A DNA stretch of 64,000 bases from Roseburia hominis. GTDB lineage: Bacteria; Bacillota; Clostridia; Lachnospirales; Lachnospiraceae. The translations under genes were made by a program, and so were the position numbers. Below are positions 1,621-18,293 of the stretch, piece by piece (the first letter of the stretch is position 1; the number at the start of each line of letters is the position of its first letter). The notes below the pieces were generated by a model. That model made no database searches, was not told where the DNA came from, and saw only the letters and a list, made by a program, of their open reading frames with translations. Location: assembly GCA_021771815.1 (NCBI GenBank), contig JAETOE010000004.1:1-64000 (forward strand). Direction: 5' to 3'.

Positions 1621-1648
1621 TAAAAATTTCCGGGGAGAATGCCGATAT
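1621..1648 (+). promoter_or_regulatory. Sigma-28 (FliA/SigD) flagellin promoter
   Basis: TAAA at 1621-1624 is followed after 16 nt by GCCGATAT at 1641-1648. This matches the Firmicutes sigma-D consensus TAAA-N15-GCCGATAT with a perfect -10 element. It sits about 55 bp upstream of the flagellin start codon, and AAGGAGG at 1685-1691 is the ribosome site. Confidence 0.85.
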
Positions 1649-1705: not shown

Positions 1706-4700
1706 ATGTTACCGATACAACATGATATGCTGACGTGGAATGCACAAAGACAGTATAATATTAACACGAAAGCAAAAAATAAAAGGATGGAGAAGCTTTC
1801 TTCCGGTTACCGGATTAACCGAGCTTCGGATGATGCGGTCGGTCTGACGATCTCTGAGAAAATGCGCAGACAAATCAGGGGATTGAAAAAGGGAACGGAG
1901 AATGCCCAGCACGGTGTTTCCTGGGTGCAGACCGGGGACGGTGCGCTTGGTGAGGTACACGATATCCTGCACCGGATGAATGAGCTTACTATCGCGTCGC
2001 TGAATGATACATATACGCCTTTGGACAGAGCGAATATGGAGGATGAGTTTGAACAGCTTCAAGGCGAGCTGGATCGTATCAGCACGACAACTTTGTTTAA
2101 TACACTGAACATTTTTGCGGAACATGAGCCTACCTATGACCAGATCTGCGGTAATATACCCTGGGATCATGGGCAGACGCATGAGATACTGGCGGGGAAG
2201 AATCAACTGGTTATTGAATACAGGGATGATGCGGCTGACAGTCCCAAGACGCTGATTTTAGAAGTTCCTCCGGGGAAATATACGACTCATGAACTGATTG
2301 ACGAGCTGGATGATGCGGCAGGAATTTCAGGTCCGATACATATGGAAATGGCGGGGGACGGAGTATGTAAGTTAAATCTGGAGAACGGTGAAATTATTGA
2401 TACGATATCAGGGGGGTTGTCTTATCTTCTGTGGGATACTTATAGCGGAGGAGGATACGGAGCCCTGATAGGAACCACGGAATTTGTCAGGGATACGGAT
2501 ACGCTGAAAATCGTTCAGGGACAAAACGACTACCTGGAGTTTACCATAGAGTATTTTGACGGAAGCGGCACGGATACGGTAAAAATTGACTTGATTAACG
2601 ATAGTCTGCCTGCAGGTACTGAGAGAAGGTACACGAAGGCTGAACTGATGAATATTATCGATAGGGCGGTTCCGGCAAGCAGCGGCTTAAAAACCAGTCA
2701 TTACGGCAAGTCCATTATGCTCTCCAGTGATTTAGGTATCGTTACCGGGTTTAAGGGAAATATGTTCAAAATAGAGAACACCAACCCGATATATACATCT
2801 GTTTTTTATGACAATATTCAGGAAGGACATGTATGGCATGACCCGGCGTCTGTAGTAGGCGGAGCAGTTTTAACTACGGATACGCGCGACAAGGAGCATA
2901 ACAGATATTATATTGACAGCACGAACAATACGTTGGTCTTACAGCCGAATTTAACGACGTCGCCAACTACGATTACAATAGATACAAATACTGCCGACGG
3001 CTATACGGCGGCTCAGATGGTTGAGGAACTGAATAAGAAATTTAAGGCGGCGGGGCTTGAAAATGAGGTCAAGGCTTGTTTGGTTCGTTCAAATAGCAGG
3101 GAGAAGTTTCCGGATGGGACAGACCCCAGTTCCGGAGCAGCGGTCCGGGAATCCGTGGGAGACGACTCCGTGTACTTTGAGGGTATAGAGATTCGGACCG
3201 TGAAAGAGGGACCGGATTCCATTGTAAATATTGATAAGGATGCCAGCAGTGCTTATGATACTTTGTTTACGGTCAAAAATTTTAATTCATATGGAACAAC
3301 TACAGATGCGGTTATAAATAACGAAACCAGAACGGACGCAAATGCTTATGCGGAGAGTTCCAAAGATTATAGCAACAATGCTATAGTTACGATTAAGAAC
3401 GACGTAAATGATAAATTTGTAGTCACGTTGAGAAGCAGAAATGCAAACGGCGCAAGTGATTACAATAAATCATTTACTATTGATATTCTTGCAGGCGGCA
3501 GCAGGGATATGACGGCGGCGGATATTGTTTCGGCCATTAATACGGAGATTGGAAATAATAGCGAACTGAACGGCAGGATTATAGCCAAAGTCGAGAACGA
3601 TAAAGTACGAATTCTGGATGCGGAAGATAAGACGCTTGATAATATAAATGACAGCTATCTTAACTGGAATACGGAGATATCGCTTAGCAGCTCTGGCAGT
3701 AACACCGGATATCGTGCTATTTTTCAGAAAGAGTATAAATATAACGTGCCGCAGACTGCCAGTGGGAAAGGGTCTTTGACAATCGATACGGCGGGGAAGA
3801 CGTTAAGCGGCGGTATGTCGGTCTATATCAATGGGAAAAAGGAGTATTTTGATTTCAACGGAAAAACAAGCCTTGATGATATCGTAGGAGAGATTAATAA
3901 AACGACACCAATAGAGTTCAAGGATGTAACCGGTCATGGTAATACGACTCCAAAGAATTTTTCGACGACTGGCTATGGGACGACAGATATCAGTTATTGG
4001 TCAGGCGGCACTGCGAAGGGAGATTCCGTGCCAGTGCAGGGCAGTACGGAGCTAACGGCAAATGCTCCGGCGGAACTCGCAATAGGACCGACGTTGAAGT
4101 CGAGCATGACAATTGTCGAGGCTGATCCCAGTAATGGTATTAAGGGTAATAATAAGATTACGATTGCATTAAGAAAGAACGGAGTTGACGTAAAAAAGAC
4201 GCTTGAACTGGATGCCGGAACTTATAATCAGGATACACTTGCGGAGATGCTGCAAAAGAAAATAGATGATGCATTTGGAACCGGTATGGGCGGCGCTTCG
4301 GTAGACGTCAAGGGTAACCAGCTTGTTCTTACATCTATTCTGCCGGAGGGTCAGGACGGAAAAGATACTTCTATTACCGCTTATGCCAAGGGGCAAGAGG
4401 AGAATACTTTTTTTGAATATCTGAACACGGTGGAGACGGCGGCAAGCTGTAAGAGTAATCTGTGGCTTTCGAATAACATTGCGCTGCAGGATGGCGTAAA
4501 CGATATTTTCAAGTTCTCTTATACCGACAGTACAGGAAACCATGATGTTGAAATCGACGTATCAGACAGTGCAGCGGGTGAAACGATTAGTGCGAGTGAC
4601 CTTTTGTCGAGAATCACGACCGGACTTACGAATCAGAAGAATACCGACGGCACAGACATCAATGTTACGGCGTCTATCGTGGATAACCGTCTGGTACTTA

Positions 4701-6901
4701 CGACCAAAGAAGCTGGAAAAGGGACATATATCGGTTATACAACAGGCATTGTCGGCAGTACAGACCCTAACGCCGACGCGATATTCGGGGGACTTTCCAG
4801 CGCTACGGCGGCGCAAATCATTCTGGACAAAAATGTTCAGGGAAGCGCTAACTTTACCGGAACCAAGTCCTTTGAATTTGACTTAGACGGTCAAAAGCAG
4901 AAAGTGGAAATTACAGCGTGGAGCAGTGCGGCCGATTTGGTAAATAAGTTAAATGCGGCGTTTGCCGACCATAAGGATGACAGCGGGCAAACGGCGCCGA
5001 TCGATGTGACGGCTTCTCTGGTGAACGGAAAACTCTGTCTGACGAAGAATACTGCCGGAAGCGGCAGCCTTCATATGTCATACGCTACCGGAGGCACGGT
5101 TATGGCGGATATGTTCGGCTATGAGCCGAAACCCGGCGTAACGGTGTCTTCCAGTGGAACGAGCATAACAATAACGGCCGGAGCCAACGATACGATTTCT
5201 ATTCCCTCCGGTGAGAGCGGCGGTCTGGTGGCACCGAAAGAGGCAACGGCTTATCTGTCCCACAACGCAAACAGCGGTTTCCATTCCGCCAAGTATAGCA
5301 CGGTAACCAGCAACGCGCTGGATGCAAACGGCGTTGTGCTGGACAGGTGGAATAACGATCTGCAGTTTACTTTTAAACAGGGCACGAAGACGACAAATGT
5401 CAAAATCGAGTTGACGAAAAGCACGGGCGGTCCCACTTCGCTGGACGATATTAAGGACGAACTCCAGACTAAGATAGACGCGGCGCTTGGAAATGATGCG
5501 ATAGAAGTCAGTCTTGATAAAAATAATAGATTGGTTTTTACCTCGAAAAAACCGGGCGCGGAGTACCAGTTCTCGGGAATGCAGAGTAATGCGTATGGGA
5601 AAATGGGCGGAGGCTTTTTCCACCATGTGATGTGCGGTTATACGACGAAACAGAACCAACTGGATGACCCTGAGGACATAAATGGCGAGCAGCGTGCGGA
5701 CGATATTTTTGCGCAGGGACGTCACGATGTAGTTACCGAGTTGACGAAATTAAAACCTGGCGTCAGCGATACTTTGATTCTGGATCTGACTTATATTCCG
5801 GATGCGGATCATGACGGCACAATAGATAAAGATAAACAGCAGACGATTACGCTGGAGATGAAGCTGGATCCGAACATGCGGGAGGAGGATTTCTATGACG
5901 CGGATAAGTTAAAAACGATGATTCAGGAAAAGCTCAATGAGGCAATCAATAGTACGGAAGTGCAACAAAAAGCGGCGCAGCTTGGCATTGAACTCCATGA
6001 GAATGTGATAGAGGTGGATGTGGGCAGACATCAGACGAATATCGTGGGAAATAAAGATAGTGTGTCCATCAGCTTCACAATGACAAAAGACCCGGATATT
6101 GCCACTCCGGCGGAGGGATATTTTTACATCGACGGTATTCGCGGCAATGCTGCTTATGAGACTTTTTATTATACTTTGGGTGAATTGGTTCCGGCGTATA
6201 TTATCGGTACGAAAAATATTAACGACGGCGTGGTTTTGAAGGATGATGATACGGATCTGTCTTTTGTTGTGGATGGTAAGCAGTATACGCTTAGTAATCT
6301 GGCTCCGGGAGAATATACTGCAGAGGAAGTTGTAGATATGCTTACGCAGGAGTTTAAGAAGCAGAATATTCCTTTGGCGGCGGAGATTACAAAGGGCGGT
6401 TATTTGAAGATCTCACATCAGAGAATGGGAGAGCATGTGATTGAGAAAGTGACCGGAAGCGCGAGGAACGAGTTGTTCTATTTGGAACATGCCCAAAAGG
6501 AAACGCCCAAAGAGCGGTATATCCAGCTCAGCAGCCAGAATAACGACAATATCGAGTTGTATAGTCCGAAGTTTTCCACGTCGATGCTGCATATTAATTC
6601 CATCTGCATATCGGGAAGAAAGTATTCGGAAAAAACTTTGGTGAGACTTAAGGATGCGTTGGATACGGTATCGGGCATGAGAAGCAGGTTTGGAGCGCTT
6701 CAGAACCGGTTGGAACATTCCATCGATAACAACCAGAATAAAACGGAGAACCAACAGGCGGCGGAATCCCGTATCCGCGATGCGGATATGGCCGAAGAGA
6801 TGGTTGCATATTCCAGTCTTAACATTGTACAGCAGGCAGGGCAGGCTGTTTTGGCGCAGGCAAATCAAGATAAGAGCTCGATTTTGTCGCTGTTAGGTTA
6901 G
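1706..6901 (+). CDS. Giant flagellin (1731 residues)
   Basis: The ends are ordinary flagellin. Residues 1-145 form the N-terminal D0/D1 helices, with the conserved run SSGYRINRASDDAVGLTISE near residues 32-51. The last ~110 residues form the C-terminal D1/D0 with SRIRDADMAEEM and QAGQAVLAQANQ. Between them lie about 1480 residues in place of the usual short variable region. That insert carries about eleven copies of a strand-helix-strand motif, with helices starting near residues 188, 307, 432, 601, 720, 838, 960, 1072, 1243, 1397 and 1536. Each reads roughly T-x-D-L-x-x-x-L-x-x-x-hydrophobic, usually followed by a strand such as LVLTS, which resembles the flagellin hook IN motif. No HExxH zinc site is present, so it is not a flagellinolysin. 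Seven cysteines occur, unusual for flagellin. A sigma-28 promoter precedes it, and no other flagellar gene is in the window. It should form the surface filament subunit. Confidence 0.93.
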   Translation: MLPIQHDMLTWNAQRQYNINTKAKNKRMEKLSSGYRINRASDDAVGLTISEKMRRQIRGLKKGTENAQHGVSWVQTGDGALGEVHDILHRMNELTIASLNDTYTPLDRANMEDEFEQLQGELDRISTTTLFNTLNIFAEHEPTYDQICGNIPWDHGQTHEILAGKNQLVIEYRDDAADSPKTLILEVPPGKYTTHELIDELDDAAGISGPIHMEMAGDGVCKLNLENGEIIDTISGGLSYLLWDTYSGGGYGALIGTTEFVRDTDTLKIVQGQNDYLEFTIEYFDGSGTDTVKIDLINDSLPAGTERRYTKAELMNIIDRAVPASSGLKTSHYGKSIMLSSDLGIVTGFKGNMFKIENTNPIYTSVFYDNIQEGHVWHDPASVVGGAVLTTDTRDKEHNRYYIDSTNNTLVLQPNLTTSPTTITIDTNTADGYTAAQMVEELNKKFKAAGLENEVKACLVRSNSREKFPDGTDPSSGAAVRESVGDDSVYFEGIEIRTVKEGPDSIVNIDKDASSAYDTLFTVKNFNSYGTTTDAVINNETRTDANAYAESSKDYSNNAIVTIKNDVNDKFVVTLRSRNANGASDYNKSFTIDILAGGSRDMTAADIVSAINTEIGNNSELNGRIIAKVENDKVRILDAEDKTLDNINDSYLNWNTEISLSSSGSNTGYRAIFQKEYKYNVPQTASGKGSLTIDTAGKTLSGGMSVYINGKKEYFDFNGKTSLDDIVGEINKTTPIEFKDVTGHGNTTPKNFSTTGYGTTDISYWSGGTAKGDSVPVQGSTELTANAPAELAIGPTLKSSMTIVEADPSNGIKGNNKITIALRKNGVDVKKTLELDAGTYNQDTLAEMLQKKIDDAFGTGMGGASVDVKGNQLVLTSILPEGQDGKDTSITAYAKGQEENTFFEYLNTVETAASCKSNLWLSNNIALQDGVNDIFKFSYTDSTGNHDVEIDVSDSAAGETISASDLLSRITTGLTNQKNTDGTDINVTASIVDNRLVLTTKEAGKGTYIGYTTGIVGSTDPNADAIFGGLSSATAAQIILDKNVQGSANFTGTKSFEFDLDGQKQKVEITAWSSAADLVNKLNAAFADHKDDSGQTAPIDVTASLVNGKLCLTKNTAGSGSLHMSYATGGTVMADMFGYEPKPGVTVSSSGTSITITAGANDTISIPSGESGGLVAPKEATAYLSHNANSGFHSAKYSTVTSNALDANGVVLDRWNNDLQFTFKQGTKTTNVKIELTKSTGGPTSLDDIKDELQTKIDAALGNDAIEVSLDKNNRLVFTSKKPGAEYQFSGMQSNAYGKMGGGFFHHVMCGYTTKQNQLDDPEDINGEQRADDIFAQGRHDVVTELTKLKPGVSDTLILDLTYIPDADHDGTIDKDKQQTITLEMKLDPNMREEDFYDADKLKTMIQEKLNEAINSTEVQQKAAQLGIELHENVIEVDVGRHQTNIVGNKDSVSISFTMTKDPDIATPAEGYFYIDGIRGNAAYETFYYTLGELVPAYIIGTKNINDGVVLKDDDTDLSFVVDGKQYTLSNLAPGEYTAEEVVDMLTQEFKKQNIPLAAEITKGGYLKISHQRMGEHVIEKVTGSARNELFYLEHAQKETPKERYIQLSSQNNDNIELYSPKFSTSMLHINSICISGRKYSEKTLVRLKDALDTVSGMRSRFGALQNRLEHSIDNNQNKTENQQAAESRIRDADMAEEMVAYSSLNIVQQAGQAVLAQANQDKSSILSLLG

Positions 6902-6937: not shown

Positions 6938-7014
6938 AGACAATAATGATAGAATATCTGTCGGAAAAGAGCGTTAGCACATTATATTCATATAATCTGC
7001 TGGAGCTCTTTTTT
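6938..7014 (+). repeat. Repeat R copy 1, containing a terminator
   Basis: This ~75-bp block matches 10620-10698 with about six substitutions, most of which keep or wobble-pair the stem. Its second half (6966-7014) is a long imperfect hairpin, with AGAGC 6968-6972 pairing GCTCT 7005-7009, followed by a T-run. It acts as the terminator of the giant flagellin gene. The shared part extends about 25 bp upstream of the hairpin, more than a terminator needs. Confidence 0.85.
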
Positions 7015-7037
7015 GGTTTGTAATGGGAAATATCTTG

Positions 7038-11874: not shown

Positions 11875-12396
11875 ATGATGCTGAAATTGGAGCGGTTGAC
11901 AGCAGAGGATTTTGAGGTAGTGTGGAACATTATGGAGGAGAGTTTTCCTGTGGATGAACGAAGAAACCGCAGGGGGCAGGAGGAAGTTCTGAAAAACCCA
12001 TATTATCACCTCTATGGTTATCGTCAGAGAAAGGAAATTGTGGCGTTTCTGGCGGTATGGGAGTTCGACGTGTTTACGTTTATAGAACATTTTGCCGTAA
12101 AGCAGACATACCGCAACGGCGGACTGGGAGCGGAACTGTTAGGACAGCTTTTGGAGCGGAATCATCTTCCGGTGATCCTGGAAGCGGAGCCGCCGCTCGG
12201 GGAACTGCAGGAGCGCAGAATCCGCTTCTATGAGAGAAACGGTTTTGTGCTCAACCCGTATGAGTATGTGCAGCCCGCTATGAGTGCGGAGGGAAAGAAG
12301 ATTCCGCTTGGTATCATGTCCTATCCGAGACGTCTTTCGGTGGGAGAGTATGAGACGATGCGCGATATTCTCTACCGCATTGTGTATCATGTATAA
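11875..12396 (+). CDS. GNAT family N-acetyltransferase
   Basis: This is a 173-residue GNAT-fold protein. Residues 1-20 form the first strand and helix (LERLTAEDFEVVWNIMEESF). The acetyl-CoA-binding motif A region is IEHFAVKQTYRNGGLGAELL, with the Q/R-x-x-G-x-G/A pattern seen as R-N-G-G-L-G. The C-terminal strand reads FYERNGFVLNPYEYVQPAM. The acceptor substrate cannot be predicted. GTGAGGAA directly before the double ATG at 11875 gives the start. It is convergent with the exonuclease III gene, whose stop is only six bases away. Confidence 0.85.
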   Translation: MMLKLERLTAEDFEVVWNIMEESFPVDERRNRRGQEEVLKNPYYHLYGYRQRKEIVAFLAVWEFDVFTFIEHFAVKQTYRNGGLGAELLGQLLERNHLPVILEAEPPLGELQERRIRFYERNGFVLNPYEYVQPAMSAEGKKIPLGIMSYPRRLSVGEYETMRDILYRIVYHV

Positions 12397-12401
12397 ATAA
12401 A

Positions 12402-13157
12402 TCAGAGTGCAATCGTAAGTTCCACCGGGCAGTGATCGGAGCCGGATATGTCCGTGTGGATTTTGGCATCCGTCAGCTTTTCATCCAGTGCGGCGGAAGT
12501 GATGAAATAGTCGATACGCCATCCGGCGTTCTTTTCTCTTGCCTTGAAGCGGTAGGACCACCAGGAATAAACGCCCTCCGTGTCGGGATAGAAATGCCGG
12601 AAGGTATCGGTAAAGCCCGCGTTTAACAGGGCGGTCATCTTTTCGCGTTCCTCGTCGGTGAACCCGGCGTTTTTGCGGTTCGTCTTCGGATTTTTTAAAT
12701 CAATCTCTTCGTGTGCAACATTTAAGTCGCCGCAGAGAATCAGCGGCTTTTTCGCATCAAGCGCTTTTAGGTAAGCGCGGAAATCATCTTCCCATTTCAT
12801 ACGGTAGGGCAGTCTTGCGAGTTCATTCTGGGAATTGGGCGTATAGCACGTCACCATATAAAAATCTTCGTATTCCAGAGTAATCACGCGGCCTTCTGTA
12901 TCGTGTTCGGGAATGCCGATGCCATAGTATACAGACAGAGGTTCCCGTTTTGTGAAAATCGCAGTGCCGGAGTAGCCTTTTTTCTCGGCGTAATTCCAGT
13001 ACGCGTGATAGCCCTCCGGCGCAAAATCAATCTGTCCTTCCTGCAGCTTTGTCTCCTGCAGGCAGAAGAAATCTGCGTCCGCAGCGGTAAAAAAATCCAT
13101 GAACCCCTTTTGCATACAGGCGCGTATTCCGTTGACATTCCATGAGATTAGCTTCAT
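12402..13157 (-). CDS. xth: Exodeoxyribonuclease III (AP endonuclease)
   Basis: The 251-residue protein matches ExoA/Xth along its length and acts in base-excision repair, cutting abasic sites and removing 3' blocks with Mg2+. Visible active-site motifs are WNVNGIRA (Asn), FFCLQETKL (metal-binding Glu), [21 protein letters not shown] (catalytic Asp and Asn), WRIDYF and GSDHCPVEL (catalytic His). Start 13157 follows AAGAAAGG on the minus strand. Nothing looks abnormal. Confidence 0.96.
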
Positions 13158-13297: not shown

Positions 13298-14053
13298 ATG
13301 CCCACATGGAACCCGTGGCACGGCTGTATTAAGCTTGGTTCCGGCTGTAATCACTGCTATGTCTACCGCAGGGATGCGGAATTCGGAAAAGATGCGTCAA
13401 AAATTAAAAAGACAGCCAAGTTCGACCTTCCGGTGCAGAAGAACCGCAGGGGAGCCTATAAGCTTTTGCCGGAGGAAGAGCCGGTCTATGTGTGCATGAG
13501 CTCCGATTTTTTCCTGAAAGCGGCAGACGAATGGAGGAAGGATGCATGGGCGATGATGAGAGAGCGCGCCGATCTTTCGTTCGTGATCGTCACAAAGCGC
13601 ATCCACCGATTTAAGGTATCGCTCCCCGAGGATTGGGGCGAGGGGTACGAGAATGTGACGGTGATGTGTTCGGCAGAGAATCAGAGCCGGGCAGACGATC
13701 GGATACCGGAATTGCTGGCGCTTCCCATCCGGCATAAGGCGGTTCTTCTCGAGCCGATGCTTGGGCGTATTCAGATAGAAGCATACTTAAAGAGCGGGCA
13801 GATCGAGCGCGTCGTCTGCGGCGGCGAGACGGGAGAGGATGCAAGAGTCTGTGATTTCGCATGGGTACTTGACGCGATGAACCAGTGCGTGAAGTATGAC
13901 GTGCCGTTTCAATTCAAACAGACGGGAACGTTCTTTAAAAAGGGAGAGAAAGTGTACCGTATCGAAGAGGACAACCAGAAGCAGCAGGCAAAGCGGGCAG
14001 GCGTGGATTTTGGGCAGGGCAGTGAGAAAACGGCAGGTGAGAAAGAATTATGA
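13298..14053 (+). CDS. DUF5131 (Gp37/Gp68-like) protein
   Basis: This 251-residue protein begins with the family signature TWNPWHGCIKLGSGCNHCYV, with cysteines spaced C-x6-C-x2-C. The conserved CSAENQSRADDR and LLEPMLGRI follow, then GGETGEDARVCDFAWV. DUF5131 proteins were first named from phage genes (Gp37/Gp68) but are common on bacterial chromosomes; the cysteine cluster suggests a metal or iron-sulfur site, and no function is established. The start at 13298 is used because AGGAAGGAGG at 13281-13290 is correctly spaced. The stop overlaps the ATG of the following gene, so the two products may act together. Confidence 0.85.
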   Translation: MPTWNPWHGCIKLGSGCNHCYVYRRDAEFGKDASKIKKTAKFDLPVQKNRRGAYKLLPEEEPVYVCMSSDFFLKAADEWRKDAWAMMRERADLSFVIVTKRIHRFKVSLPEDWGEGYENVTVMCSAENQSRADDRIPELLALPIRHKAVLLEPMLGRIQIEAYLKSGQIERVVCGGETGEDARVCDFAWVLDAMNQCVKYDVPFQFKQTGTFFKKGEKVYRIEEDNQKQQAKRAGVDFGQGSEKTAGEKEL

Positions 14054-15657
14054 AAACCGAGTTGAAAATAGAGCCAGGGAAGACGCTGCTTGCCGCGCTT
14101 AGGGAGCAGCGGATCTATATTGACGCGCCCTGCGGCGGAAACGGGAACTGCGGCAGATGCAGGGTACGTTTTTTTAAGGATATGCCGCAGCCGACGGAGA
14201 AGGAGAAGCGTTTTCTTTCGGAAACGGAGCTCGCGGAGGGAATACGGCTTGCCTGCGCAGCGCATCCGCCGGGGAAATATACCGTTGAAGTGTTGTTCCA
14301 GAGAGAAGAAGAGATGGCTGTGCTCGTCGGAGAAGAATTTACAGGGAAAAGAATGACAGGGCGGACGGCAGGCTATGGCGCTGCAATCGATATCGGTACG
14401 ACGACGCTTGCGGCTTCGCTGCTTGATCCCGCAAGCGGCAGGAGAATTGCCACTGCTTTTTCGGTCAACCATCAGCGCGCTTATGGAGCGGATGTGATTT
14501 CGCGCATTCAGGCGGCGTGCGACGGGGCGAAAGAGGCATTGAAGCAAAGCATCTGTGCGGATATCGGGGAACTGCTAAGACAGCTTACGAAGAAAGCGGG
14601 AATTCCCGCGGAGGCGGTAAGTGAAATTGTCATCGCGGGAAATACGACGATGTGCCATCTGCTGCGCGGCTTATCCTGCGCGGGACTGGGCGCGGCGCCG
14701 TTTGTGCCGGAGGATATTTCCCTTTGGGAGGGAAGTGTAAAAGAGTTTCCGGGACTGTCGGGATGGAATGCGCGGATGACGATCCTGCCGGGAGTATCGG
14801 CGTTTGTAGGTGCGGATATTGTCGCCGGAATCTATGGAAGCGGAATGGATCTAAAGGAGTCGAACCTGTTTCTGGATATCGGAACGAACGGGGAGATGGC
14901 GATCGGGGGAAGAGAAGGATTTCTTGTGACTTCCGCAGCCGCAGGTCCGGTGTTCGAGGGCGGAAATATTGAGTGCGGCGTGCCAAGCGTGACGGGAGCT
15001 GTCGCCGGGATATCACTTGCGCTTGTAAACAGCGAAAAGAATGACGGAGATAGACAAAACGAGGATGAGGCAGAAGAGGACGACAGACAGGCGCTATGCC
15101 TGGTGATGACCGGATGCACGATCATCGGCGGGGCGGCAGCAGAGCATTTGGACAGCAATGCGCCTATCGGATTCTGCGGCACTGGAATCATTGACGTGAT
15201 GGGAGAACTGGTGCGCCTCGGGTTAGTCGATGAGAATGGAACGCTGGACGAACCGTGGTTCGATGCAGGGGTAACGCTTGCAGACGGGAAGCTGCGGTTT
15301 TCGCAGGCAGATATCCGCCAGGTTCAGATGGGGAAGTCTGCGATCCGGGCCGGCATTGAGACGCTGCTCGAAAAATCCGGGAAAGCAGATTTCGGGAAGG
15401 TCTGTGTGGCGGGCGGTTTTGGCAGCTATCTGAATGTGGAGCAGGCGATCCGCATAGGGATGTTCCCGAAAGAGTTTGCGGGGCGCGTGGAAATGATTGG
15501 AAACAGCGCGCTCGCCGGAGCGGAGAAGTTTCTTCTGGCAGACCGCAGAGCGGCGGCAGAGCGGATGGATCGAATCATACGGCAGACAACGGAAATCAAC
15601 CTTGCAATGGACGCGGGATTTAATGAACGCTATCTTTCTCATATGTTTTTTATATGA
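14050..15657 (+). CDS. Ferredoxin-fused ASKHA ATPase (corrinoid reactivase-like)
   Basis: The 535-residue protein has an N-terminal [2Fe-2S] ferredoxin domain with C28, C34, C37 and C69. A linker and a DUF4445/ASKHA ATPase domain follow, whose phosphate loops include AAIDIGTTTLAASLLDP and LFLDIGTNGEMAIGG. This architecture is that of RACE/RamA-type proteins that reductively reactivate corrinoid methyltransferases using ATP. No corrinoid protein or methyltransferase is encoded nearby. A short acidic insert (about residues 330-350, rich in D, E and N) interrupts the ATPase domain. It overlaps the DUF5131 stop by four bases, so translation is coupled. Confidence 0.9.
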   Translation: MKTELKIEPGKTLLAALREQRIYIDAPCGGNGNCGRCRVRFFKDMPQPTEKEKRFLSETELAEGIRLACAAHPPGKYTVEVLFQREEEMAVLVGEEFTGKRMTGRTAGYGAAIDIGTTTLAASLLDPASGRRIATAFSVNHQRAYGADVISRIQAACDGAKEALKQSICADIGELLRQLTKKAGIPAEAVSEIVIAGNTTMCHLLRGLSCAGLGAAPFVPEDISLWEGSVKEFPGLSGWNARMTILPGVSAFVGADIVAGIYGSGMDLKESNLFLDIGTNGEMAIGGREGFLVTSAAAGPVFEGGNIECGVPSVTGAVAGISLALVNSEKNDGDRQNEDEAEEDDRQALCLVMTGCTIIGGAAAEHLDSNAPIGFCGTGIIDVMGELVRLGLVDENGTLDEPWFDAGVTLADGKLRFSQADIRQVQMGKSAIRAGIETLLEKSGKADFGKVCVAGGFGSYLNVEQAIRIGMFPKEFAGRVEMIGNSALAGAEKFLLADRRAAAERMDRIIRQTTEINLAMDAGFNERYLSHMFFI

Positions 15658-15725
15658 GAAGAACTTGCGGCACCATTGAACATGCAAAGTTTTTTAAATG
15701 AAGGAGAACAGGAGGAGAACTCATA

Positions 15726-17087
15726 ATGGAACAGAAGAATGATTTTTTAGGTACCGAATCGATCGGGAAGTTATTGTGGAAAATGTCGGTTCCTGCGATT
15801 GCGGCGCAGCTTATCAATCTGCTCTACAATCTGGTGGACCGTATCTATATCGGACATATGCCGGGAGACGGCGCACTGGCGCTTACCGGAGTGGGCGTTT
15901 GTATGCCGATCATCATGATTGTGACGGCATTTGCAGCGTTGGTGAGCAACGGAGGTGCGCCGCGTGCGTCAATGGCGATGGGAAAGGGGGATTACGATGA
16001 GGCGGAAAAGATTCTCGGAAACAGCTTTGCGCTTCAGATTATCATTTCCGTGCTGCTCACAGTGCTTCTTCTCTTGTTTCACCGTCCGCTGCTTCTTATG
16101 TTCGGGGCGAGTGAGAATACGATTTCCTATGCGGCGTCTTATATGGGAATCTACGCACTCGGCACGATCTTCGTACAGCTCACGCTTGGCATGAATGCGT
16201 TCATCACGGCGCAGGGGTTTGCAAAGACGGGAATGTTAAGCGTTTTAATCGGTGCGGTGTGCAATATTATCCTGGACCCGATCTTAATCTACGGCTTTCA
16301 TATGGGTGTGCGCGGCGCGGCGGTGGCGACAATCGTCTCGCAGGCTGTTTCGACGGTGTGGGTGATTCAGTTTTTGACCGGGAAAAAGACGGTGTTAAAA
16401 ATACGCAGACAGAATTTAAAGCTTGAGTCAAAAGTAGTAATGCCAGGGCTTGCACTTGGGCTTGCACCGTTTATCATGCAGGCGAGCGAGAGCGTCATCA
16501 TCGTCTGCTTCAACTCCTCGTTGTTGAAGTACGGCGGGGATGTCGCCGTCGGCGCGATGACGATCTTATCAAGCGCGATGCAGTTTTCAATGCTGCCGAT
16601 GCAGGGACTCGGGCAGGGAGCGCAGCCGATTTCCAGCTACAACTACGGTGCGAAGAAGAAGGAACGCGTGAAGAAAACCTTTCGCCTGCTTCTGACGGTA
16701 AGCTTAAGTTACAGTGTGATCGTATGGCTGCTTATCATGCTGTTCCCGGAAATGTTCGCGAGGATTTTTGCTTCGGACGCCGGGCTGATCGCATATACGG
16801 GATGGGCGCTTCGTATCTATTGTGCGGCGATGGGAATCTTCGGAGCGCAGATTGCCTGTCAGATGACTTTTATTTCGCTGGGAAATGCGCTGGCTTCGAT
16901 TATGGTAGCGGTCATGCGTAAATTTATCCTGCTTCTGCCGCTCATTTATCTTCTGCCGCAGTTGATTTCGAACCAGGTCATGGCGGTATATCTGGCGGAG
17001 CCGGTCGCTGACGTGCTGGCAGTGACATTTACGGTGATCCTGTTCTATTTCCAGTTTAAAAAGTCGTTGAAGAAGATCGACGAATAG
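15726..17087 (+). CDS. MATE family efflux transporter
   Basis: This 453-residue membrane protein shows the two-fold MatE architecture of about 12 helices. The N-terminal half has KMSVPAIAAQLINLLYNLVD and GMNAFITAQGF, and the second half has PMQGLGQGAQPISSYNYGAK. MATE proteins export drugs or metabolites using Na+ or H+ gradients; the substrate here is unknown. The start at 15726 lies behind AGGAGGAG with a short spacer. It is a single gene between the ASKHA operon and the promoter of the Hpt operon. Confidence 0.93.
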   Translation: MEQKNDFLGTESIGKLLWKMSVPAIAAQLINLLYNLVDRIYIGHMPGDGALALTGVGVCMPIIMIVTAFAALVSNGGAPRASMAMGKGDYDEAEKILGNSFALQIIISVLLTVLLLLFHRPLLLMFGASENTISYAASYMGIYALGTIFVQLTLGMNAFITAQGFAKTGMLSVLIGAVCNIILDPILIYGFHMGVRGAAVATIVSQAVSTVWVIQFLTGKKTVLKIRRQNLKLESKVVMPGLALGLAPFIMQASESVIIVCFNSSLLKYGGDVAVGAMTILSSAMQFSMLPMQGLGQGAQPISSYNYGAKKKERVKKTFRLLLTVSLSYSVIVWLLIMLFPEMFARIFASDAGLIAYTGWALRIYCAAMGIFGAQIACQMTFISLGNALASIMVAVMRKFILLLPLIYLLPQLISNQVMAVYLAEPVADVLAVTFTVILFYFQFKKSLKKIDE

Positions 17088-17118
17088 GACTTTTTTACTA
17101 TGATTTCCCGCTGCAGTA

Positions 17119-17147
17119 TTGAAAAGAAACGACAACTTTGCTATGAT
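17119..17147 (+). promoter_or_regulatory. Sigma-A promoter of the Hpt operon
   Basis: TTGAAA at 17119-17124 and TATGAT at 17142-17147 are separated by 17 nt. The Hpt gene starts 44 bp downstream of the -10. Confidence 0.7.
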
Positions 17148-17190
17148 AAAATAAGAACTTGCGGCGGAGAGTATAGAAAGGTGAGAAGTT

Positions 17191-17541
17191 ATGAGTACAT
17201 TGCTGGAGGAACTGAAAAGCTGGGGATGTGATGTAGATGGGGCGATGGAGCGTTTTATTGACGACGAAGGACTCTATCGGACATGTCTTGATTCCGTGAT
17301 GGCGGATAAGAACTTTGAGGGACTGCTCGATGCGCTGAACCGGCATGATGTAAGTGCAGCGTTTGAATATGCGCATACCTTGAAGGGTGTACTCGCGAGT
17401 ATGGGACTTACCCCGATGTACGATATCGTTGTGCGAATCGTGGAGCCGCTTAGGGCCGGATCGGATGAGAATCTGCTCCCTGTCTGCGATGAACTGATGC
17501 AGTCGAAGAAAATGCTCGGAAAGCTGATCGAAGCGGGATGA
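17191..17541 (+). CDS. Histidine phosphotransfer (Hpt) protein
   Basis: This stand-alone Hpt domain has 116 residues. The phosphorylatable histidine is H62 in AFEYAHTLKGVLASMG, matching the family signature A-H-x-L-K-G. The rest is a helical bundle. Hpt proteins relay phosphate between receiver domains. The only hybrid kinase in the window (20722-23301) has no Hpt domain of its own and could use this protein, but that link is inference. The stop overlaps the next gene by four bases. Confidence 0.88.
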   Translation: MSTLLEELKSWGCDVDGAMERFIDDEGLYRTCLDSVMADKNFEGLLDALNRHDVSAAFEYAHTLKGVLASMGLTPMYDIVVRIVEPLRAGSDENLLPVCDELMQSKKMLGKLIEAG

Positions 17542-18293
17542 GACCGGAGAAATTACAGGCTGTGTGCGAGGGCAGGATGGGCGTTATGAGCGAGGGCGGT
17601 GTACCTGACAGCATCTGGCTTGCGGATGTGGCTATGTTTTCCGATAGGGTAATGTTTGAAGAAGGATTGGCGCAGATCACAGAGGAGCGGAGAGCGCAGA
17701 TTGCGCGGCTGAAATCATCTGCCGATCAAAGAAGAAGTCTTGGCGCAGGGCTTCTTCTGGAATTCGGACTGCGTGCGCGGGGCTACAGTCTGCTTGGGGG
17801 TGTCTGTAATAAGACAAAGATAAATATAGAGCGCGGAGAATACGGAAAGCCGTATGTCAGGGAACTGCCGGAACTCGGCTTTAATCTTTCCCATGCGGGG
17901 AACTATGTGGCGGCGGTGTTTTCCGAGGGTGCGGCAGGCATTGATATCGAATGCAGGCGGAAGGTACGTGACGGGATGGCGAAACGCTTTTTTTCAGTGG
18001 AGGAATATGCGGCTTTTTTGCGTAGAGAGCATGATTTCTTCTGGTTCTGGACAAGAAAAGAGAGCTATATCAAAGCGGTAGGCGAGGGAATGCACCTGCC
18101 GCTTGCTGATTTTTCCACGCTTTCGGATGAGATGGCAGGAGAGCACAGATATTATTTTAAGACGTGGGAGATGGGAGAAGGGCTTTTTCTTTCTGTGTGC
18201 GATGAGAAGCCGGTTGCGGCGGAACCGGTATGGGTGGATCTTGCGAAAATATTTGACGGTGTCCGCGAAAGCCACTATAATGATAGTTTGTAA
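17538..18293 (+). CDS. 4'-phosphopantetheinyl transferase (Sfp-like)
   Basis: The 251-residue protein carries the Sfp/AcpT motifs: GKPYV, FNLSHAGNYVAAVF, AGIDIECRRK with the Mg2+-binding Asp and Glu, and FFWFWTRKESYIKAVGEG. It transfers phosphopantetheine from CoA to carrier proteins. No NRPS, PKS or carrier protein is in the window, so the substrate is unknown. The ATGA overlap supports the start at 17538, but conserved sequence begins about 25 residues later and an internal Met could be used. Its position between an Hpt and a Gre gene is unusual. Confidence 0.9.
   Translation: MRPEKLQAVCEGRMGVMSEGGVPDSIWLADVAMFSDRVMFEEGLAQITEERRAQIARLKSSADQRRSLGAGLLLEFGLRARGYSLLGGVCNKTKINIERGEYGKPYVRELPELGFNLSHAGNYVAAVFSEGAAGIDIECRRKVRDGMAKRFFSVEEYAAFLRREHDFFWFWTRKESYIKAVGEGMHLPLADFSTLSDEMAGEHRYYFKTWEMGEGLFLSVCDEKPVAAEPVWVDLAKIFDGVRESHYNDSL

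Follow-up and report, generated by a model that had tools for sequence, protein, structure and literature searches.

An orphan giant flagellin of Roseburia hominis with eleven homologous outer modules, and a family of relatives with mostly eight or about eleven

The 64,000 nucleotides of Roseburia hominis DNA analysed here (the window) carry a giant flagellin gene at positions 1706–6901 of the forward strand, an open reading frame with an ATG start and no internal stops that encodes 1731 aa (188 kDa). It is well supported that this giant flagellin is intact, that its outer part consists of eleven homologous modules, and that it belongs to a family of orphan paralogues with mostly eight or about eleven modules. 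The favoured reading, with a probability of roughly 0.55, is that the gene is a dedicated flagellin paralogue and that its product forms a thick filament, the shell of which would be made of FliD/flagellin-type modules on an out-and-back path. Most relatives have either eight or about eleven modules by sequence, a regularity which suggests that a swimming filament is encased in a thick shell built to a fixed plan.

Both ends of the protein are those of an ordinary flagellin, as in the original prediction. The N-terminal D0/D1 region (residues 4–139; 1715–2122, forward strand) matches PF00669 (Flagellin_N, E 5.3e-37, 127 bits) and the C-terminal D1/D0 region (residues 1649–1730; 6650–6895, forward strand) matches PF00700 (Flagellin_C, E 6.8e-21, 75 bits), both scores exceeding the Pfam cut-offs, and an insert of about 1509 aa lies between them. 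Over the N-terminal region, the protein is 54–56% identical to those three flagellins of its genome that match it best. The FlgL model TIGR02550 scores 81.8 bits on the window protein, under its cut-off of 127.2, and the best NCBIfam flagellin model reaches 192 of 352 bits; none attains its curated cut-off over the whole protein, as expected because the insert is so large. Judged by these matches, the protein reads as a flagellin and not as the hook-junction protein FlgL, and at 1731 aa it exceeds the 1000 aa that mark a giant flagellin sensu Thomson 2018. Enzymatic surfaces had been proposed along the filament, and this idea found no backing: no enzyme or lectin domain is among the Pfam matches of the window protein, and the HExxH motif and metalloprotease domain by which a flagellinolysin is recognised are both absent from it. 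Flagellin_IN (PF07196) and the FliD C-terminal family are likewise not among its families at E ≤ 1; of ten relatives, a single one matches PF07196, at E 0.14 and with 12.8 bits where the cut-off is 22.7.

A sigma-28-like promoter, TAAA-N16-GCCGATAT, was located by pattern matching at 1621–1648 (forward strand), in agreement with the sigma-28 promoter originally predicted for the gene, and AGGAGG occurs at 1686–1691, 14 bases 5′ of the ATG. The site is one base off the sigma-28 consensus. With one mismatch allowed, the pattern, which was defined post hoc from the site already seen, has two matches in 64 kb against 0.43 expected, and two or more in 7 of 100 shuffles. The sequence TAAA-N15-TCCGATAT lies upstream of the small flagellin in the flagellar cluster on contig C10 of the same genome. 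Downstream of the gene, a rho-independent-type terminator hairpin with a T run (6961–7016, forward strand; RNA fold −25.1 kcal/mol, z −6.4) was equalled in stability by none of 200 shuffles, and is absent from the output of a simple terminator scan. Taken together, the promoter-like site, the AGGAGG and the hairpin indicate that the giant flagellin is probably a one-gene unit. A family-wide sigma-28 promoter was considered and dropped, as the strict pattern TAAA-N14-17-GCCGAT was found in 3 of 53 giant upstream regions (window included; L051 omitted, its upstream region being too short) versus 0.38% of 5000 random stretches, and the promoter is argued for in the window only.

The neighbours of the gene are a flavodoxin gene upstream, and a LytTR regulator and a GHKL kinase downstream. 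Twelve flagellar-region proteins of the same genome, labelled by our own reading (one label is uncertain), were used as queries and revealed no further flagellar gene in the 64-kb window; they matched the giant itself and, marginally, 63 residues at 12312–12479 (E 0.008). The gene had been expected to stand apart from other flagellar genes, and this was borne out, the orphan position being judged on the upstream side from 1.7 kb, with the contig beginning at window base 1. The window opens a contig of 112,599 bases (C31), one of 85 in an assembly of 3.74 Mb.

The flagellar export system on which the original prediction depended is indicated by an intact FlhA on contig C76, and the genome also encodes FliD and at least four other flagellins. 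Two partial FlhA-family matches were seen in addition on contig C56 (G000:C56:37636-38226). One cluster of the same genome is read as fliS-fliD-fliW-flgL-flgK, the names being our own except for FliD (PF07195). A further flagellin of 500 aa (L049, 7037–9051) is situated away from the C10 cluster, and a 159-aa gene directly behind it is FliS-like by eye. Among genomes of the same family, FlhA was found in all ten carriers of a giant versus 155 of 299 genomes overall (Fisher p 0.0012).

In a self-alignment of residues 141–1640, the three best local paths (139, 92 and 89) rose above the highest score of 20 shuffles (59), whereas from the fourth path on the scores (≤54) were at shuffle level. The boundaries of eleven modules were placed by eye, and each window module was scored with a profile built from the other ten positions in other giants, against 100 shuffles per module. 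All eleven exceeded their best shuffle (10.2–43.4 versus ≤8.6). On the forward strand, with the score and best shuffle given last, these are M1 (residues 163–242; 2192–2431; 22.2 and 4.3), M2 (262–351; 2489–2758; 30.5 and 7.1), M3 (400–512; 2903–3241; 31.3 and 4.6), M4 (558–650; 3377–3655; 27.3 and 8.6), the degenerate M5 (688–748; 3767–3949; 10.2 and 6.4, the narrowest margin), M6 (798–895; 4097–4390; 43.4 and 5.3), M7 (921–1014; 4466–4747; 28.2 and 6.9), M8 (1041–1130; 4826–5095; 29.6 and 5.7), M9 (1207–1293; 5324–5584; 39.0 and 7.6), M10 (1344–1461; 5735–6088; 16.3 and 6.8) and M11 (1504–1586; 6215–6463; 35.5 and 6.2). The repeats are therefore real, with about eleven related helix-strand units as predicted, while their spacing differs from the 112–171 residues claimed at first, module starts being 99–166 residues apart. 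A single all-position profile recovered 10 of the 11 window modules at E ≤ 0.01, M5 being missed by this common profile, and found none besides those of the giant in 452 ORFs from the window and 12 same-genome loci (best E 0.09).

The most alike positions are M7–M8 (112), M6–M8 (106), M6–M9 (96) and M6–M7 (94), and profile–profile comparison of positions gave probabilities mostly above 90%, the lowest being M5 versus M10 (12–18%). Within the gene, DNA repeats of at least 20 bases extend over short stretches and reach no more than 81% similarity; recent duplication of modules was therefore rejected, and the duplications are taken to be old. A three-module periodicity was also dropped: the top self-alignment path has an offset of 407 residues, close to three modules, yet module-against-module scores gave no consistent signal of period 3, the mean at offset 3 being 62.8 versus 63.8 at offset 1. 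Within M10 there is an acidic DxDxDG-type loop, DADHDGTIDKDK (residues 1366–1377, window 5801–5836), which resembles an EF-hand-type calcium loop; it was not seen at the equivalent place in the other nine giants compared.

Related inserts are present in 10 of 299 genomes of the same family, the window's genome included, and the one same-genus genome listed has FlhA and lacks the giant. A class-wide draw of 391 genomes gave three matches: the window's genome, another genome of its family, and a third match that is weak and partial. Scanning of 84,980 species with two peptide patterns returned 133 stretches, among which 66 relatives at 65 loci were recognised. Many of their record titles name Lachnospiraceae or its genera, others Eubacteriales, Clostridiales, Clostridium, Eubacterium or simply bacterium; L066 is titled Bacillus sp., and L113–L115 Oscillospiraceae or Ruminococcus. 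Both flagellin ends were found in one frame of more than 900 aa at 53 of the 65 loci (L096 among them, with an N-terminal domain that is only partial), and with the window these make 54 members. The 12 loci left out comprise eight two-frame splits, three cut by contig ends (L069, L075, L104) and one without a C-terminal match (L094). The eight two-frame giant genes (L057, L064, L070, L076, L079, L085, L092, L110) may reflect assembly error, decay or something regulated. The giant flagellin, described at first as much longer than usual for Firmicutes, is long against the other flagellins of its genome (open frames of 265–540 aa) and of ordinary length within its own family, where 6 of the 54 members are longer.

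An orphan position is the rule within the family. No flagellar neighbours were seen by eye at the nine other carriers first fetched, except second flagellins (L041 and L045). The flanks of the 65 loci (1.26 Mb; up to 10 kb on each side, many shorter) have in common housekeeping genes, each in subsets of loci, and ten flagellar queries against their ORFs of at least 90 aa gave a single match, FliS in L112; FlgL and the small flagellin had been excluded from the twelve queries because they cross-match flagellins. Second flagellins occur in L074, L102, L109, L111 and L112, and L095 has one in fragments. At the latter locus (14009–17981), N- and C-terminal pieces of a second giant, in separate frames, adjoin the 1278-aa giant of Eubacterium plexicaudatum ASF492.

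Members fall into two length groups, 15 of 1164–1285 aa and 39 of 1519–1880 aa, with just one of the latter (1519 aa) below 1600 aa. The common profile finds eight modules in all 15 short members, and in the 39 long members it finds eleven in 30, ten in four (window, L073, L081, L088), nine in four (L051, L065, L068, L102) and twelve in one (L060). The window and its three nearest relatives are thus below eleven by this profile, the positions missed being M5 in the window and the places of M5 and M10 in L051, L065 and L068, where the modules may be degenerate or lost. Short modules S1–S4 match M1–M4 and S6–S8 match M9–M11, and S5 resembles M6, M7 and M8 to much the same degree (98, 108 and 110), so that the three-module difference between the two forms is located mid-insert. 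Modules of the Oscillospiraceae proteins match M1–M4, M6, M7, M8 and M9–M11 one to one, M5 having no clear counterpart. Strains carrying the eight-module form include Anaerocolumna aminovalerica DSM 1283 (L106) and E. plexicaudatum ASF492; Bacterium C-53 carries eleven.

A tree of 53 members, built from D0/D1 and the insert ends with the middle columns left out, places the eight-module members in one group (SH-aLRT 94), so that a single change of module number suffices there, and if it is rooted on Oscillospiraceae the eleven-module order would be the older. A tree of D0/D1 only, with 39 giants and 29 other flagellins, conflicts with it on both the single origin of the eight-module form and the older form: the eight-module members are not together, L106 and L109 being placed among long forms (support 83), and the Oscillospiraceae are nested within the giants. 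In this second tree the giants and a 1071-aa flagellin (L140, in genome G273) form one group (SH-aLRT 97), and a grouping of the giants alone was not rejected (AU p 0.81, with a likelihood better than that of the free tree). On this tree the giants look like one long-lived paralogue. The D0/D1 region of L140 (G273:C39:34900-38400) groups with the giants and its insert shows no module in the scan; it is perhaps a giant with a replaced insert.

Conservation of the modules is lowest in the middle of the insert. Among 31 long members, a set without redundancy that excludes the Oscillospiraceae and L102, mean pairwise identity from M1 to M11 is 0.47, 0.40, 0.34, 0.28, 0.26, 0.32, 0.30, 0.29, 0.34, 0.40 and 0.38, and among 14 short members it runs from 0.61 through 0.28–0.35 to 0.56. 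The V-shaped trend is not strictly monotonic, M6 being above M7 and M8, and M11 just below M10, and it may be deepened by poorer alignment or looser constraint in the middle. Together with the mid-insert change in module number, it is as expected if both ends of the insert are inner and its midpoint outermost. The flagellin ends are under purifying selection (dN/dS 0.03–0.13 in eight pairs), as is the insert in six of the eight (0.07–0.13), the other two giving 0.33 and 0.43; the pairs are not eight clean independent values, since three include L077 and L051–L068 has a dS of 1.4.

AlphaFold2 models were obtained for window residues 356–1498 (with 38 relatives; pLDDT 84.4, pTM 0.48) and for the eight-module protein of A. 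aminovalerica (1192 aa, 41 rows; pLDDT 86.1, pTM 0.53). Most modules in the models form their own strand-strand-helix-strand-strand run, which speaks for continuous folding units, while pTM values of 0.48–0.53 mean that the relative arrangement of modules is not predicted. A Foldseek search of the PDB with the window model gave three matches at E ≤ 0.001, one being Helicobacter pylori FliD (6iwy; E 5.6e-6, probability 1.00, the TM being low and the rmsd high when the whole multi-domain model is superposed) and the others a complement C3 entry (probability 0.08) and a phage tail entry (0.13); Vibrio cholerae flagellins followed at probabilities of 0.98–0.99 and E 0.06–0.1. The eight-module relative gave 71 matches at E ≤ 0.001, headed by a Geovibrio thiophilus flagellin (9au6, E 4.7e-16) and then Vibrio and other flagellins, some of them probably due to the common D1. 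The module profile also matched FliD 5fhy weakly (E 0.075). Structure prediction, the check proposed at the outset, thus points to FliD and flagellin outer domains, and the modules are predicted to have the same fold as the outer domains of FliD, a resemblance and not proof of descent.

Capsid and tail proteins of viruses also show the module pattern. The best match of the module profile was protein S (1prr; 2.4e-4, through two short stretches), and others were PBCV-1 protein P1v1 (E 3e-4) and a penton protein (0.005). A phage family of unknown function, phrog_19400, matched nine of ten inserts (best 2.7e-28), the window being the exception; under a permissive threshold of E ≤ 1, it was also matched by 4 of 14 control genomes. 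Adeno_Penton_B (PF01686) matched three of ten inserts (best 4.9e-9) and has no match in the window protein; its matches in the inserts of L063 and L109 are above the Pfam cut-off, yet cover 36 or 62 residues of a 461-position model. Foldseek against a viral library gave 20 matches at E ≤ 0.001, and among these the models of penton-like, tail sheath and baseplate proteins have probabilities of 0.95–1.00 and low TM. No match to the L054 insert was found by tblastn in 50,697 phage records, and a scan of viral contigs with the two patterns gave 48 pattern matches and no relatives. A viral origin of the modules was rejected, and the likeness is read as a common strand-Gly-x-Tyr-helix pattern that is probably convergent, with common ancestry as the alternative.

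For the thick-filament reading we infer sigma-28 control, filament assembly, an out-and-back path, thickness and a mechanical role. The gene would be transcribed alone under the flagellar sigma factor, and the D0/D1 ends would allow export by the ordinary flagellar machine and polymerisation as in any flagellin. The chain would run outward via M1–M4, turn in the central modules and return via M9–M11, each module folding as its own unit of the FliD/flagellin-outer-domain type (a helix flanked by two strands on each side). A filament assembled from thousands of copies would then have a thick outer shell (roughly 30–45 nm by a volume estimate), and the shell may stiffen or bulk the filament for swimming in viscous surroundings. 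If each subunit adds a rise of 0.47 nm and the core is 6 nm in radius, the 1509-aa insert gives 30–44 nm at a packing of 0.3–0.74 and 54 nm at 0.2, as a rough guide; by the same sum, and on rounded insert lengths, the 24 nm of Salmonella correspond to a packing of 0.18 and the 30 nm of Bermanella to 0.38. The eleven-module order common to Oscillospiraceae counts for this reading, as do the D0/D1 matches, the homology of the modules, FlhA in all ten carriers, the matches to FliD and flagellin folds, the V-shaped conservation and the low dN/dS of the insert in six of eight pairs. Counting against it are the low pTM of the models, the departures of the conservation trend from strict monotony, the strict sigma-28 pattern in only 3 of 53 upstream regions, the same-genus genome that has FlhA and no giant, the faster insert evolution in two of the eight pairs, the departure of the window clade from eleven modules and the several other flagellins in the genome, among which the giant could be a minor component.

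It is possible, if unlikely, that the modules are instead an adhesive or glycan-binding display that binds mucin, plant fibre or other cells, with thickness being incidental. The six record titles that spell out a body site (L055, L060, L082, L083, L113, L115) all name rumen, caecum or colon, and flagellin outer domains serve adhesion according to the accessible part of PMC10256154. Pfam matches among ten inserts include a CCL2-like lectin (E 0.0032) and Mucin_bdg (0.08), in one insert each, but these are weak matches judged on E alone and none is in the window protein, and the modules that are least conserved are the middle ones, those expected to be outermost. Quite doubtful is a role as a minor flagellin, present in few copies in an ordinary filament, or as a secreted decoy or immunomodulator like Campylobacter FlaC, which the accessible text of PMC4863622 describes as secreted and without part in motility. 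The orphan position favours such a role, as do the PF00669 matches of the nine other genomes with a giant, which number 4–8 per genome when the giant itself and FlgL-like proteins are counted, whereas the presence of both D0/D1 ends and their purifying selection are as polymerisation would require. Similarly improbable is a lattice rule, by which the giant would build a second, alternative type of filament. Adjacent subunits would interlock through their modules to form an unbroken tube, a protein sheath around an ordinary flagellar core, and only eight or eleven modules would close the lattice. Such a rule, with its step of three, would account for a module number that stays constant although insert sequences have diverged to about 30% identity, but it is weakened by the counts of 9–10 in the window clade under the common profile, and by the ends-only tree, which leaves the eight-module members ungrouped. 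A steric shield, whose shell would keep antibodies, phages or the flagellin receptor away from the D0/D1 core, would fit the bulk of the insert and the tie of outer domains to immune evasion in the accessible part of PMC10256154, but is very unlikely, as the insert is under purifying selection in most close pairs, unlike an antigen under diversifying pressure.

Several known systems resemble the giant flagellin in part. Flagellinolysins, the proteolytic flagellins of PMC7643111, likewise have a large flagellin insert as far as the accessible text describes them, but carry the protease domain and HExxH that the window protein lacks. In the ridged filaments of P. aeruginosa PAO1, dimerised outer domains form a mechanical layer suited to viscous surroundings, as is proposed for the giant, and in the accessible part of that description (PMC10256154) they have D2 and D3 only, unlike the module chain of the window. 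The D2–D3 domains of FliD, the filament cap, and the D2/D3 domains of flagellins have folds similar to that predicted for the window modules; one or two copies are usual there, in contrast to eleven in one window chain. Closest are the giant flagellins of Thomson et al. 2018 (PMC6248924), which in the accessible part of that paper are likewise longer than 1000 aa, with ordinary D0/D1 and repeated insert domains, and among which larger flagellins of 1020–1190 aa give thicker filaments of at least 30 nm. The repeat described in the same part comprises two DE regions, in Oceanospirillales and in single-flagellin species; by description, the window family differs in having eight or about eleven shorter modules, and in being an orphan paralogue beside other flagellins. 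The same authors, in that part, leave open the function of giant flagellins and how the tandem-repeat insert between the D1 halves folds, whether as continuous or split domains. With two module-number classes, many species and other flagellins in the genomes tested, the present family is a natural experiment on both questions. No eight- or eleven-module Lachnospiraceae flagellin is described among the literature matches listed, most subscription papers lying outside the coverage. Eubacterium plexicaudatum, a carrier of the family (L095), is named in the legend of Fig. 1 of PMC6248924, and its giant is likely the same gene. Giant flagellins, one of them from E. plexicaudatum, are already known, and what is new is the plan of eight or eleven modules and the orphan family that carries it.
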